Positions 18,828 through 22,987 of a stretch of DNA of 64,000 nucleotides are shown piece after piece; position 1 is the first letter of the stretch; each line of letters opens with the position of its first letter. The stretch is taken from positions 434,001 through 498,000 of the forward strand of contig NZ_FNWU01000001.1 of NCBI RefSeq assembly GCF_900108505.1, in the 5' to 3' direction. Position numbers and translations under genes: made by a program. The DNA is from Halopenitus malekzadehii (GTDB lineage: Archaea; Halobacteriota; Halobacteria; Halobacteriales; Haloferacaceae). Below the pieces are notes generated by a model. That model was not told the origin of the DNA. It ran no database searches and worked only from the letters and a program-made list of their open reading frames with translations.

Positions 18828-19259
18828 GTGAACACCGCCGACCAGTATCTCAAGACGATCTATCTGATCCAGAACCAGGAGGACGGGCCAGCCTCGACGG
18901 GATCGATCGCCGACGCGCTCGACGTCAGTCCCGCCAGCGCCAACGAGATGATCGGCAAGCTCGAGGGGCGTGGCCTGGCCGACCACGAGAAGTACAAGGG
19001 CGTCACGCTCTCCGAGGAGGGGATCGTCCGCGCCCGGGACGCGCTCCAGACCTACTGCATCATCGAGCGCTTCCTCGCGAACGTGCTCGGCGTCGAGGAG
19101 TTCCGCGCCGAGGCGCGCCAGCTGGAGGCCGTGATCGACGACACCGTCGCCGACCGCCTCGACACGATCATCGATCGGGAGCCGGAGTGTCCCGACTGCT
19201 TCGACGCCGAGGCCGACGCCTGCGCCTGTCTGGAGGCGGCCTTCGAGGGCGCGGACTGA
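18828..19259 (+). CDS. DtxR/SirR family metal-dependent transcriptional regulator
   Basis: The 143-aa protein begins (GTG) MNTADQYLKTIYLI, the classic start of DtxR/MntR/SirR proteins. It has a winged helix (TGSIADALDVSPASANEMIGKLEGRGL, KGVTLSEEG) and then the dimerisation/metal domain (CIIERFLANVLG, EEFRAEARQLEAVIDD). The C-terminal tail has several Cys and acidic residues (CPDCFD, CACLEAAF) instead of an SH3-like domain. A Shine-Dalgarno-like GGAGG lies about 8 nt before the GTG. The position behind sufCBD and a ferritin-like gene suggests iron-responsive control of this cluster. Confidence 0.9.
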   Translation: MNTADQYLKTIYLIQNQEDGPASTGSIADALDVSPASANEMIGKLEGRGLADHEKYKGVTLSEEGIVRARDALQTYCIIERFLANVLGVEEFRAEARQLEAVIDDTVADRLDTIIDREPECPDCFDAEADACACLEAAFEGAD

Positions 19260-19282
19260 TGGGGAAATTTTTCTTGTTTTAG
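19260..19282 (+). terminator. T-rich stretch after the DtxR gene
   Basis: The sequence just after the stop codon contains ATTTTTCTTGTTTTAG, a T-rich tract of the kind that ends archaeal transcripts. It also marks a drop in GC content that continues to about 20700. Confidence 0.4.
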
Positions 19283-19576
19283 GAAAACGTAGTTGGTGAA
19301 TCACATCATCAATTTCGGGAAGGAGACACAAAATACCGCGGAGATTGGTGGCGTGTCCGGCGTACAGCGCTTTCTCGGGACGATCATAAATGGCAGAATT
19401 GTGTCATTAATACGGAAGAGATCGGGCGGGAACCTGATGTTCACCATCTCAAACCGGTCCGGGAGTTTGAGGACCCCCAGGATACCCATACACTTTCGAA
19501 CGCGGTAACACTATGTCGCTTATGTCATCGGCTGGCGGAAGCGGGAACGATTGAAATCACAAGTCCGAAACAGTAA
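19283..19576 (+). pseudogene. 5'-truncated, degenerate HNH endonuclease gene
   Basis: A 97-codon frame with no start codon, closed upstream by TAG at 19280, ends at TAA 19574-19576. It reads YRGDWWRVRRTALSRDD, then DVHHLKPVREFEDPQD and NAVTLCRLCHRLAEAG. This is the arrangement of haloarchaeal HNH nucleases, with the HH of the active site and the downstream CxxCH. The first zinc CxxC expected after RDD has become WQNC, so one metal ligand is lost. The lack of a start codon and this loss point to a broken gene. It sits directly before tRNA-Gln and is probably debris from a mobile element. Confidence 0.75.
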
Positions 19577-19610
19577 GTCTATTTGTCGTCGATGGTTTGT
19601 GTGTAATTGA

Positions 19611-19713
19611 AGTCCCGTGGTGTAGCTGGCCAATCATATGGGCCTTTGGACGCTTACTGTTCAACAGGGGCGAGAGACAGCCCATGACGGCGGTTCGAAT
19701 CCGCCCGGGACTA
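19611..19713 (+). tRNA. tRNA-Gln (anticodon TTG) with an intron
   Basis: Acceptor AGTCCCG (19611-19617) pairs with CGGGACT (19706-19712), followed by discriminator A. Other arms are D-arm GTGT/TCAT, anticodon stem TGGGC/GCCCA, anticodon TTG at 19646-19648, and T-arm GGCGG-TTCGAAT-CCGCC. About 29 nt (19650-19678, boundaries within about 2 nt) interrupt the anticodon loop after position 37. An internal CGCT/GGCG pairing could form the central helix of a bulge-helix-bulge splice site. An intron in tRNA-Gln(UUG) is known in Haloferax. No CCA is encoded. Its 3' end is copied twice more downstream, so it is a likely integration site. Confidence 0.9.
19650..19678 (+). other. tRNA-Gln intron
   Basis: An insertion of about 29 nt lies between canonical tRNA positions 37 and 38. 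Without it the anticodon loop is CTTTGGA and the stem TGGGC/GCCCA closes perfectly. It would be removed by the archaeal splicing endonuclease. Confidence 0.8.
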
Positions 19714-19714
19714 T
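19691..19714 (+). repeat. attL-like direct repeat: 3' end of tRNA-Gln (copy 1)
   Basis: This 24-bp stretch covers the T-arm and 3' acceptor strand of tRNA-Gln. It recurs without mismatch at 20885-20908, in the same orientation. Duplication of a tRNA 3' end is the normal trace of tyrosine-integrase insertion into a tRNA gene. Confidence 0.8.
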
Positions 19715-19715
19715 C

Positions 19716-19743
19716 CTGCGGCGAACGGTATCGTGAGCCGCAG
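19716..19743. terminator. Hairpin directly after tRNA-Gln
   Basis: CTGCGGC at 19716-19722 pairs perfectly with GCCGCAG at 19737-19743 across a 14-nt loop. It starts 3 nt after the tRNA and may act in transcription termination or 3' processing. Confidence 0.4.
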
Positions 19744-19749
19744 ATATTA

Positions 19750-19803
19750 GCGGATTCGAACCGCGAGGACTCGCGTTCGCTCGTCCTCTGGATTCGAATC
19801 CGC
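19750..19803. repeat. Long inverted repeat built from two opposed tRNA T-arm copies
   Basis: GCGGATTCGAA (19750-19760) and TTCGAATCCGC (19793-19803) are perfect complements. Inside them GAGGAC (19765-19770) pairs with GTCCTC (19783-19788). The outer arms resemble the T-arm of tRNA-Gln, and the right arm is part of the degenerate att copy at 19790-19812. It also lies just past the stop codon of the convergent PIN gene, where it could act as a terminator. Confidence 0.6.
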
Positions 19804-19812
19804 TCGGGACTA
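19790..19812 (+). repeat. Degenerate copy of the tRNA-Gln 3' end (copy 2)
   Basis: Over 22 bp (19791-19812) it differs from the true tRNA 3' end (19692-19713) at two positions (A for G and T for C). Its last three bases, CTA, form the TAG stop codon of the PIN-domain gene on the other strand. Confidence 0.7.
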
Positions 19813-20352
19813 CACCAAATCGTCGTCGGAGGCGTCGTCGCTAGCTTGTCGGAGGGTTCGGGTCGCTTGCGCGACGTAGGTGTTAGTGTCCCAGCTCCGC
19901 GCATCACTCATCTCCGAGACCAGCGCTTGAGCGTCATTCGACGAGAGAAACTCGTTTCGGACGAGTATGGTTACGAGCGTCGGCGTCGTCACGAGGCGGG
20001 TATCCGCAAGGGACGCGTGTATAAGAGCGAGGCGATTGAATTCGTCGCAGAGAAACTGCGTCGCGCCGAGGTCGTTAGCGAGAGAAACCGCTGCGTTCTC
20101 GCCGTCATCGAGCGGGAAATCCGCATCGAGAGCTGCAGTCCGGACACGGAACGTGGTTCGGCGATCGAGAACCGCCCGTGCAGCGGTTCCCGACTGATCA
20201 TCGTATGATGCGGTTTCCTCCAACTCCGCGAGCACTCGATCGGGGACGATGACTCGATGTGCATCGAGAATGATATCAAGCGGGTTCCGCTCGTGGGTGG
20301 CGACGGTGCCAAGCGTCACGAGAGCGGACGTATCCGCGACGAGAAGCACCAT
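19810..20352 (-). CDS. PIN-domain toxin (VapC-like ribonuclease)
   Basis: The 180-aa protein begins MVLLVADTSALVTLG, the PIN-domain opening with the first catalytic Asp. Further acidic residues follow at the expected places (ELEE near residue 42, DDGENAAVSLANDLGA near 85 and CDEFNRLA near 103). PIN toxins of toxin-antitoxin pairs cut RNA. The start codon follows the antitoxin stop with no gap, the usual antitoxin-then-toxin order. The stop codon lies inside the degenerate att copy at 19790-19812, so the present C-terminus may have been set by an integration or deletion event. Confidence 0.82.
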   Translation of the reverse strand: MVLLVADTSALVTLGTVATHERNPLDIILDAHRVIVPDRVLAELEETASYDDQSGTAARAVLDRRTTFRVRTAALDADFPLDDGENAAVSLANDLGATQFLCDEFNRLALIHASLADTRLVTTPTLVTILVRNEFLSSNDAQALVSEMSDARSWDTNTYVAQATRTLRQASDDASDDDLV

Positions 20353-20670
20353 CTATGAGTCTGCCAGCTCCTCCGCGGCTTCTTCGAGAAACTCCTCACG
20401 AAGTTGTCCTTTTAAAACACGAAAGTTCGCAGCCTCCTCGTGACCGACGAGTTCCGTTAATTGCTCGAACGTAATATCATCCTCGTAGTATGCGCCGGCG
20501 ATCTCCTGTTTGATATCGTCATCGTGAGATGCTTCTCGGAGGTATTCACGGAGTGCGTCGGTAAGGATGTCCGTACGGTCCGTCTCGAGGACGGTCGCGA
20601 GTGCGTCCGCTCGGTCGATCAAACCTCGCGGCGCGCGGAACTGCACGCGTTTCTTGCTCTCCGAGCTCAT
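20353..20670 (-). CDS. Ribbon-helix-helix-type antitoxin
   Basis: The 105-aa protein begins MSSESKKRVQFRAPRGLIDRADALA: a short basic beta-strand region (KKRVQFRAP) and then helices, as in RHH DNA-binding antitoxins. The C-terminal half (FEQLTELVGHEEAANF, LREEFLEEAAEELADS) is acidic and helical and probably wraps the PIN toxin. An earlier in-frame start near 20811 would add a basic, unrelated stretch and cross the promoter, so I chose the ATG at 20668-20670. It is the first gene of the pair and probably represses it. Confidence 0.8.
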   Translation of the reverse strand: MSSESKKRVQFRAPRGLIDRADALATVLETDRTDILTDALREYLREASHDDDIKQEIAGAYYEDDITFEQLTELVGHEEAANFRVLKGQLREEFLEEAAEELADS

Positions 20671-20741
20671 ATGTGTACAATGTGAGTGCAGTTGGGTAAC
20701 TCTTTCTACAGGCGGAACAGGCCGAGTGCCTCGGGGTCGGA

Positions 20742-20760
20742 CGGAAATCAAAGATTTCCG
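20742..20760. promoter_or_regulatory. Perfect inverted repeat upstream of the antitoxin gene
   Basis: CGGAAATC-AAA-GATTTCCG has 8-bp perfect arms with a 3-nt spacer, inside the tRNA-bounded island and about 70 bp upstream of the antitoxin start. It could be an operator or a transcript hairpin. The remaining bases from 20671 to 20984 hold no convincing gene. Confidence 0.4.
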
Positions 20761-20884
20761 TAATGACGAGAGATGGAGTCTCTCGAACCACTTGACCCCG
20801 AGCCGGTTCACCGACTGGATCCAGCACTGGGATGGTGACGACGTCGCCTCGCACGCTGCTTTATAAGGGAAAAGACCTCCTACT

Positions 20885-20908
20885 CGGTTCGAATCCGCCC
20901 GGGACTAT
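20885..20908 (+). repeat. attR-like direct repeat of the tRNA-Gln 3' end (copy 3, exact)
   Basis: This copy is identical over 24 bp to 19691-19714, in the same orientation, and is not part of any tRNA: the upstream half needed for a cloverleaf is missing. It marks the right border of the island. Confidence 0.8.
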
Positions 20909-20986: not shown

Positions 20987-22987
20987 TCAGTCGCCCTGGA
21001 CGGTCCGCTGGATGTCCTCGACGACCTCGGGATTTCGCAGGGTGCTCGTGTTGCCGAGCTCCTCGTCGTTCGCGATGTTCTCGAGGAGGCGGCGCATGAT
21101 CTTCCCGGAGCGCGTCTTGGGGAGTTCGGGCGTGAAGATCACCTGCTCGGGCTTGGCGATCGGGCCGATCGCCTCGTTGACGCCGTCGATGATCCGCTGG
21201 CGAAGGTCGTCGGTCTCCGCATAGCCCTCCTCGGTGATGACGTACGCGTAGACGGCCTCGCCCTTGATCTCGTGGTTGCCGCCGACCACGGCGGCCTCGG
21301 CGACGCCCTCGACGCCGACGATCGCCGACTCGATCTCCATCGTCCCGAGGCGGTGGCCGGAGACGTTGATCACGTCGTCGACGCGACCGAGAACGGTGAT
21401 GTAGCCGTCGTCGTCGATCTTCGCGCCGTCCTCGGGGAAGTAGACCCAGTCGTCGGGGTCGTCGCTGTCGACGTCGGAGTACTCCGCCCAGTATTCCTCG
21501 ATGTAGCGTTCGTCGTTGTTGTAGAGGGTTCGCAACATTCCCGGCCAGGGCTTTTGAACGGTGAGGTAGCCAGCCTCGCCGGCGCCGATCTCCTCGCCGG
21601 CGGTGTCGACGATCCGGACGTCGAGTCCCGGCAGCGGCGGGCCGGCCGACCCGGGCTTCATGTCTCCGATCCCGGGCAGCGTGGTGATCATCATCCCGCC
21701 CGTCTCGGTTTGCCACCAGGTGTCGACGATCGGACAGTCCTCGCCGCCGATGTGTTTGTAGTACCACTTCCACGCGCGCGGGTTGATCGGCTCGCCGACG
21801 GTCCCGAGCAGCCGAAGGCTCGAGAGGTCGTGCTCGGCCGGGTACTCCTCGCCCCACTTCATGAACGCCCGGATCGCGGTCGGGGCGGTGTACAGCTGGG
21901 TCGCCTCGTACTCCTCGACGATCTCCCAGAGTCGATCCCGGTCGGGCTGGTCGGGGGCACCCTCGTACATCATCGTCGTCGTTCCGAGCGCGAGGGGTCC
22001 ATAGACGATGTAGGAGTGGCCCGTGATCCAGCCGATGTCGGCCGAACAGAAGTAGGTGTCCTCCGGTTTGACGTCGAGGACGGATTGGGAGGTCCAGCTC
22101 GCCCACGCGAGGTAGCCGCCGGTCGTGTGCTTGACCCCCTTCGGCTTGCCGGTCGTTCCGGAGGTGTACATCAGGAACAGCATGTCCTCGGCGTCGCGGC
22201 TGACGGGCTCGACGGTGGCGCCCTCGTGGCCCGCAAGCAGGTCGTCGTAGGTCCGCTGGTCGGGCCCGAGGTCGTGGTCGACGCCGTCGCCGTTGGCCGC
22301 GAGCCGTTCGACGACCACGGTTTCGGTGTCGTGTTCGACCCCGTCGAGTCCCTCGGTGGCCTTCTCGAGGTGGTCGAGGGCGTCACCGCGCCGGTAGTAG
22401 CCGTCACAGGTGACCAGGTATTCGGAGTCGGCCGCGTTCATCCGGGTCGCGAGCGCGTCCGCGGAGAACCCCGCGAAGACGACGCTGTGTGGGGCGCCGA
22501 TCCGGGCGCAGGCCAACATCACGATCGGCAACTCGGGGATCATCGGCATATACAGCGTGACGACATCGTCCTCGCCGACGCCCAGATCCCGGAGTGCTGC
22601 GGCGGCCTCGTTGACCTCGCGATGGAGTTCCTCGTAGGTGTAGGTTCGGTTCGCCTCGTCGACCGGTTCGCCGACCCATTCGATGGCGGCCTCGTCGCCG
22701 CGCTCCGCGAGGTGACGGTCGATGCAATTGGCCGACGCGTTCAGTTTTCCGCCCGTGAACCACTCGTAGAAGGGTGGGTTGTCGTCGTCGAGTACCCGAT
22801 CGTAGGAGTCCTCCCACTCGAGGAGGTCGGCCGCGGCCGCCCAACAGTCGGGCCAGTTCTCCTCGAACTCCTCGTAGATCGCCGGATCGGTCACGTTGGC
22901 CTGGTCGGTGAACGACGCCGGCGGTTCGAAGACGTCCTGTTCGGCGAGTCGCGCTTCCAGTTCGGGTCCCTCGTCCGAGTCTGACAT
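20987..22987 (-). CDS. acs: Acetyl-CoA synthetase (AMP-forming)
   Basis: The 666-aa enzyme activates acetate to acetyl-CoA through acetyl-AMP. It has the adenylate-forming P-loop YTSGTTGKPKG, the NIDRH-type motif NCIDRHL near residue 82, TWWQTETGG, DEGYLxRD-type region DGYITVLGRVDDVINVSGHRLGT (A8 hinge) and the C-terminal PKTRSGKIMRR with the catalytic, acetylatable Lys. Length matches the family. A TATA box lies at 23014-23019. The gene stop is about 80 bp from the right border of the tRNA-Gln island. Confidence 0.96.
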   Translation of the reverse strand: MSDSDEGPELEARLAEQDVFEPPASFTDQANVTDPAIYEEFEENWPDCWAAAADLLEWEDSYDRVLDDDNPPFYEWFTGGKLNASANCIDRHLAERGDEAAIEWVGEPVDEANRTYTYEELHREVNEAAAALRDLGVGEDDVVTLYMPMIPELPIVMLACARIGAPHSVVFAGFSADALATRMNAADSEYLVTCDGYYRRGDALDHLEKATEGLDGVEHDTETVVVERLAANGDGVDHDLGPDQRTYDDLLAGHEGATVEPVSRDAEDMLFLMYTSGTTGKPKGVKHTTGGYLAWASWTSQSVLDVKPEDTYFCSADIGWITGHSYIVYGPLALGTTTMMYEGAPDQPDRDRLWEIVEEYEATQLYTAPTAIRAFMKWGEEYPAEHDLSSLRLLGTVGEPINPRAWKWYYKHIGGEDCPIVDTWWQTETGGMMITTLPGIGDMKPGSAGPPLPGLDVRIVDTAGEEIGAGEAGYLTVQKPWPGMLRTLYNNDERYIEEYWAEYSDVDSDDPDDWVYFPEDGAKIDDDGYITVLGRVDDVINVSGHRLGTMEIESAIVGVEGVAEAAVVGGNHEIKGEAVYAYVITEEGYAETDDLRQRIIDGVNEAIGPIAKPEQVIFTPELPKTRSGKIMRRLLENIANDEELGNTSTLRNPEVVEDIQRTVQGD

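Follow-up and report, generated by a model that had tools for sequence, protein, structure and literature searches.

The interval from 19,715 to 20,908 of the window, the whole 64,000-nt stretch of Halopenitus malekzadehii DNA that was analyzed, is best explained, with somewhat better than even confidence, as a minimal, integrase-less, CIME-like slot behind tRNA-Gln that houses a type II RHH/PIN cassette, spread horizontally and exchanged through copies of the tRNA tail (Table 1). In the proposed mechanism, the slot would be built of repeated T-arm and acceptor-tail sequence from tRNA-Gln, which belongs to a family of ~100-bp hairpin units spread across the haloarchaea. These tails and units would serve as recombination sites, and the toxin–antitoxin (TA) pair would be the minimal cassette swapped through them, such that cargo is gained, lost, or replaced by tail–tail recombination. 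The reaction may be catalyzed in trans by a host tyrosine recombinase, or may proceed by host homologous recombination. If the PIN protein is a VapBC-like RNase toxin as predicted, loss of the island via the tails would remove the antitoxin gene while the stable toxin remains; the pair is therefore expected to keep the island, and probably does so by addiction.

Table 1. The tRNA-Gln slot and its flanks, in window coordinates
Feature	Position	Strand	Basis or remark
DtxR-family regulator, left conserved flank, after SufD and a rubrerythrin-like gene	18828..19259	+	Pfam; family-wide synteny
tRNA-Gln(UUG), with ~29-nt intron at 19651-19679	19611..19713	+	RF00005 match, G000:C27:453611-453713
Tail copy A (attL-like)	19691..19714	+	Covers the T-arm and 3′ acceptor strand; exact 24-bp repeat
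Tail unit: hairpin 1, then inverted T-arm/inner hairpin/T-arm, and copy B	19715..19812	+	Fold; covariance model
Tail copy B, imperfect (83%)	19790..19813	+	Holds the PIN stop codon
PIN-domain toxin (predicted), 180 aa	19810..20352	-	AlphaFold, Foldseek, PADLOC, 46-homologue alignment
RHH (CopG-like) antitoxin (predicted), 105 aa	20353..20670	-	Directly upstream of PIN
RHH/PIN promoter region and non-coding right part of island	20671..20884	.	No intact ORF by inspection
Tail copy C (attR-like), exact	20885..20908	+	Repeat match
Acetyl-CoA synthetase (acs), right flank	20987..22987	-	Common to both congeners

The boundaries of the island are defined by copies A and C, which are identical over 24 bp, with the second 1,194 bp downstream of the first. 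An earlier note on this DNA had pointed out this exact repeat of the tRNA-Gln 3′ end, and both copies are indeed present and otherwise unmatched in the genome: exact matches to the 22-bp core, GGTTCGAATCCGCCCGGGACTA, are limited to these two sites in the 3.14 Mb searched. The best match to the 24-mer elsewhere, in the 425 kb downstream of tRNA-Gln genes of other haloarchaea, has six mismatches. Since the best comparable match is that poor, a copy with none is not due to chance. Copy C is also not part of a conserved gene, the second objection that the earlier note had raised against itself, as it is intergenic and lies before acs. The imperfect copy B starts 99 bp after copy A. The sequence from 19,715 to 20,884 has a GC content of 0.579 compared to 0.665 and 0.664 in the flanks, bearing out the lower GC content previously reported, and its only intact genes are the RHH and PIN genes, with neither an integrase nor transfer genes between the repeats. 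Homology to relatives stops ~45 bp upstream of RHH. Farther out, upstream of the RHH promoter, 20,705–20,820 contains nested inverted repeats, CTCGGGGTC...GACCCCGAG, around two smaller hairpins.

The tRNA gene itself was undetected by an ARAGORN run without introns because it carries one, whose bounds were set by comparison with the intronless copy in the congener G001. To its left, the order SufB/D, rubrerythrin-like gene, DtxR, tRNA-Gln is kept in most family members, and AlaX is found on the right side, 0.7–8 kb away, in 18 loci. The AT-rich anomaly extends upstream of the tRNA (19,260–19,610, GC 0.476), and this segment includes the remnant of an HNH endonuclease C-terminus at 19,436–19,573 (Pfam HNH, 3.7e-06). 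Directly upstream of the intronless tRNA-Gln of G001 is an ORF that encodes a PDDEXK_5 endonuclease domain (L032 6882-7388).

The cargo has the organization of a VapBC-type system. The AlphaFold model of the PIN protein has a pLDDT of 94 and retrieves PIN and VapC structures in Foldseek, albeit at low identity, while a search of solved structures by sequence found none. Its acidic residues D7, E43, D82, E85, and D103 are conserved across the 46 aligned homologues, and PADLOC matches it to the candidate system PDC-S70 (4e-9). The adjacent upstream gene encodes a predicted DNA-binding-domain antitoxin with a weak match to Pfam RHH_1 (E = 0.0086, under the family cut-off). The antitoxin–toxin order, PIN fold, acidic site, and RHH-like antitoxin all resemble VapBC-type pairs, including PDC-S70. 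Unlike those, the window pair has no NCBIfam match and scores under the curated Pfam cut-offs, one subclade is tied to tRNA-Gln, and its RNase toxicity is a prediction. RHH and PIN are kept together in nearly all homologous loci, and dN/dS in close PIN homologue pairs ranges from 0.06 to 0.35, well below 1, so that by the measure of sequence the pair is intact and under purifying selection. The window PIN is ~10 residues longer than in relatives because its stop codon falls inside copy B.

PIN homologues occur in 152 of the 243 genomes of the order, and 21 loci were found in named genomes. The closest lie just downstream of tRNA-Gln in G151, G201, G003, Halegenticoccus tardaugens, and Halalkalirubrum salinum, the last at a distance of 3.8 kb owing to an insertion in between; the G156 homologue (61% identity) is likewise downstream of tRNA-Gln, whereas the remaining homologue loci examined are not at this tRNA. 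Together with the window, these seven PINs form one clade spanning the window genus and five further genera in two families. The branch that joins them has moderate support (92/80), and none of 500 label shuffles was equally clustered. In all seven loci, the RHH–PIN order is identical and convergent with the tRNA, while the right flanks vary between acetyl-CoA synthetase, guaB, Zn-ribbon/thiolase, and MiaB-like genes, as named from translations. The presence of the same pair at tRNA-Gln in other genomes, which the earlier note had proposed to look for, is thus established for five further genera, where no integrase was found either. In the second family (f7), tRNA-Gln lies outside the Suf–DtxR neighborhood, and the surroundings of tRNA-Gln in the two families are non-syntenic. 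PIN and RHH are no less similar to their other-family counterparts in G151 and G201 (71–72% and 83–84% identity) than to those within the window's own family (70–73% and 84–86%), while the identity of SufD falls from ~77% within that family to ~71% between the two. These comparisons are fitted best by horizontal spread of the pair with tRNA-Gln as its constant landing place. A right-hand tail copy is clear in the window only, is weak in Halegenticoccus, and was not seen in G151, G201, G003, or G156, for which site-specific integration is consequently not claimed.

Comparison of loci further indicates that the cargo at this slot is replaceable. Among three congeners, which are separate species, the space before acs is occupied by RHH/PIN in the window, by two ORFs in G002, and by another TA pair in G001. 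The G002 slot (L031 5196-6868) encodes proteins of 358 and 199 aa, neither with a Pfam, NCBIfam, or PADLOC match, and retains a 13-bp part of the tail at the homologous position before the homologous flank (score 78, shuffle maximum 37.5). The 358-aa ORF has a motif that, judged by eye, resembles a PD-(D/E)XK nuclease. The pair in G001 consists of a UPF0175 protein and a DUF3368-like PIN protein, without a right tail. An empty tRNA-Gln site had been proposed as a check, and G029 provides essentially one, with an FkbM-type gene 77 bp past tRNA-Gln followed by AlaX. The scenario in which all relatives share one layout and no empty site is found, named earlier as fatal to the island, is contradicted by this genome and by the differing cargo of the congeners. 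A further comparison is that of Halalkalirubrum with G003. In the former, a ~3.65-kb insert comprising a nucleotidyltransferase (with its frame interrupted), a small ORF, and an S9 peptidase is flanked by imperfect ~87-nt unit copies. In the latter, there is a single chimeric unit, which follows the left copy as far as GGTTCGAATCC and corresponds to the right copy from there on; the switch occurs at GTGGTTCGAATCC, at the tRNA T-arm. Such a chimeric unit is the product expected of recombination between two tails. In Halegenticoccus, the TA pair is flanked on either side by units, as detected by the covariance model described below.

A recombinase is not encoded at the slot. The genome has 14 Phage_integrase (PF00589) matches, the only ones on the island contig being ~0.6 Mb away, and a profile search of 54 tRNA-Gln loci found nothing integrase-like among the ORFs of the first 9 kb downstream (the integrase profile comprising 30 loci, nearly all from the window's own genus). 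The foremost rival explanation, though a rather improbable one, is that the island is a decayed CIME: an integrase-bearing plasmid or provirus at tRNA-Gln would have lost its integrase and other genes, leaving the TA pair between attL and attR. Decay to attL/attR-flanked remnants is the usual origin of CIMEs (PMC5704250), and the HNH remnant indicates gene decay close by. Two IMG/VR contigs (L162 6302-6375 and L163 12222-12295) carry a complete tRNA-Gln beside a gene whose product is a large primase-like protein, with no tail unit and with a common sequence, CTCAAAATTC(C/T)TACATAGTCC, after the tRNA. They are probable elements integrated at tRNA-Gln, and suggest that integrative elements do use this gene. 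Against decay, the units and the PIN/RHH pair alone recur in further genera whose right flanks differ, homology stops just upstream of the RHH promoter, and no remnant of a larger element is shared, while both reading frames are intact and purifying selection acts on them. No parent element bearing the pair was found among the PIN homologues of the 243 genomes of the order and the named genomes, though the island may still derive from an ICE or IME by loss. The earlier note had offered two alternatives, a relic kept by its addiction module or a minimal element moved in trans. The same minimal content in five other genera, the purifying selection, and the lack of a shared larger-element remnant make the former the less likely half, and movement in trans is plausible. 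Of that interpretation as a whole, the tRNA-bounded, integrase-less island with att-like ends and an intact TA pair stands, while the relic and the tail copy as an integrase trace fare worse.

The difficulty with the latter is that cognate-tail units follow many haloarchaeal tRNA genes, making a tail copy near a tRNA ordinary and a downstream 3′-tRNA copy insufficient by itself as evidence of an integrase. The unit behind the window tRNA consists of hairpin 1 (19,716–19,743) and a long hairpin (19,749–19,804) in which a reverse-complement T-arm pairs with the T-arm. Its fold has a z-score of -5.73, and it scores 67 bits with R1, a covariance model built from 13 units that has matches in the genomes of 33 of 40 relatives. 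In many other genera, too, tRNA-Gln is followed by related units. Among 19 unit loci examined elsewhere than at tRNA-Gln, ARAGORN found a tRNA in 18, of the Arg, Leu, Pro, Met, Val, and Ser types, nearly always immediately before the unit or tandem array, with both the inverted T-arm and the tail matching the cognate tRNA. The same kind of inner hairpin occurs with different tRNA types. Units of this family, often arranged in tandem, are seen for example at L077 (G016), L063 (G046), L078 (G001), L071 (G009), and L048 (G026), among many more loci. Cognate-tail units follow few tRNAs in the window's own genome and about a third of the 30 examined in G014, and tandem arrays have up to five further tail copies, a number reached after one tRNA-Arg. 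The window unit has no Rfam match at the gathering score and no relevant match in known phages, plasmids, or viral contigs. No description of such units was found in the open-access literature, which is weak evidence of novelty.

This propensity to amplify suggests another explanation, albeit an unlikely one, in which slippage or template switching generated copy C as a by-product and the TA pair came to lie between units by chance, with no mobile unit involved. The up to five additional copies in arrays speak for it. So does the spacing of the exact tRNA-Gln tail, which is 80–133 bp in 20 of the 22 multi-copy genomes among the matches listed; of the other two, one has them on separate contigs, and the other is the window, with its 1,194 bp. 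In the window unit, the inner hairpin has the opposite orientation to that of other units, and the break points fall within the inverted T-arm copies; this also fits such activity, while under the exchange mechanism proposed above it suggests recombination between those copies. Apparent inner-hairpin inversions in other units were considered and set aside, as the other pattern matches appear to be opposite-strand readings. Yet copy C has no mismatch, lies 1.2 kb off, and lacks a recognizable unit before it: the covariance model returns only a weak match there (5 bits, E 0.18), and copy C is unlikely to be the end of a second full unit. A distant exact copy enclosing cargo, unlike a nearby tail copy, is exceptional in haloarchaea, and chance would leave the same TA subclade at tRNA-Gln in six genera unexplained. 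Least probable is vertical inheritance from an ancestor of the two families with the pair already beside tRNA-Gln, mostly lost since, and with tail copies as unrelated local repeats; while the single PIN clade, the constant order and orientation, and the moderately supported joining branch are formally compatible with one ancient origin and many losses, both congeners lack the pair, the relatives sampled have it at tRNA-Gln in G003 alone besides the window's own genome, and the between-family identities and non-syntenic neighborhoods run counter to it.

The preferred reading, a slot with exchangeable cargo, places the island as a CIME in architecture and, by its predicted products, VapBC-like in content. 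A CIME is an island without integration and transfer genes in which attL and attR are retained (PMC5704250). The window island likewise is bounded by att-like direct repeats, one of them at the 3′ end of a tRNA; it lacks an integrase, and its cargo is replaceable and accretes at the same site. Unlike CIMEs of the bacterial ICE and IME families, it is archaeal, 1.2 kb long, and limited to one TA pair amid tRNA-tail hairpin units. CIMEs are generally much larger than this. With the archaeal tRNA-integrated elements (SSV-, pNOB8-, and SNJ2-type elements and proviruses such as those of Haloquadratum), the island shares a tRNA 3′-end duplication as the mark of insertion; unlike all of these, which carry an integrase (a tyrosine recombinase in the SSV, pNOB8, and SNJ2 types), it has none of its own, and its far copy is located past a local tail unit. 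Exchangeable cassettes beside hairpin-forming recombination sites recall integrons, a mere resemblance, as the island has neither an integron integrase nor attC. In the same genome, the tail of tRNA-Phe recurs with one mismatch 1.5 kb downstream (G000:C16:51359-52930; L288 ~860-2434), delimiting an integrase-less mini-island with an RHH-like 138-aa ORF inside and an Mrr-like nuclease gene after it.

Integration at tRNA genes is usually inferred from an integrase together with a duplicated tRNA end. Here, duplicated tRNA ends are common without an integrase, and small TA cargo is replaced between them. More tentatively, the ~100-bp units themselves may be non-coding mobile elements of an undescribed family, distributed throughout the haloarchaea, that carry the tails of their cognate tRNAs, multiply behind them, and provide docks where integrase-less TA cassettes are inserted and exchanged by trans-acting recombinases; the window island would be one occupied dock. 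The presence of such structured units across many haloarchaeal families and tRNA species calls for an explanation. If cassettes of one or two genes do move without a recombinase of their own, tRNA-linked arrays would constitute a route for shuffling TA and defense genes in archaea, one that would escape integrase-based island finders.
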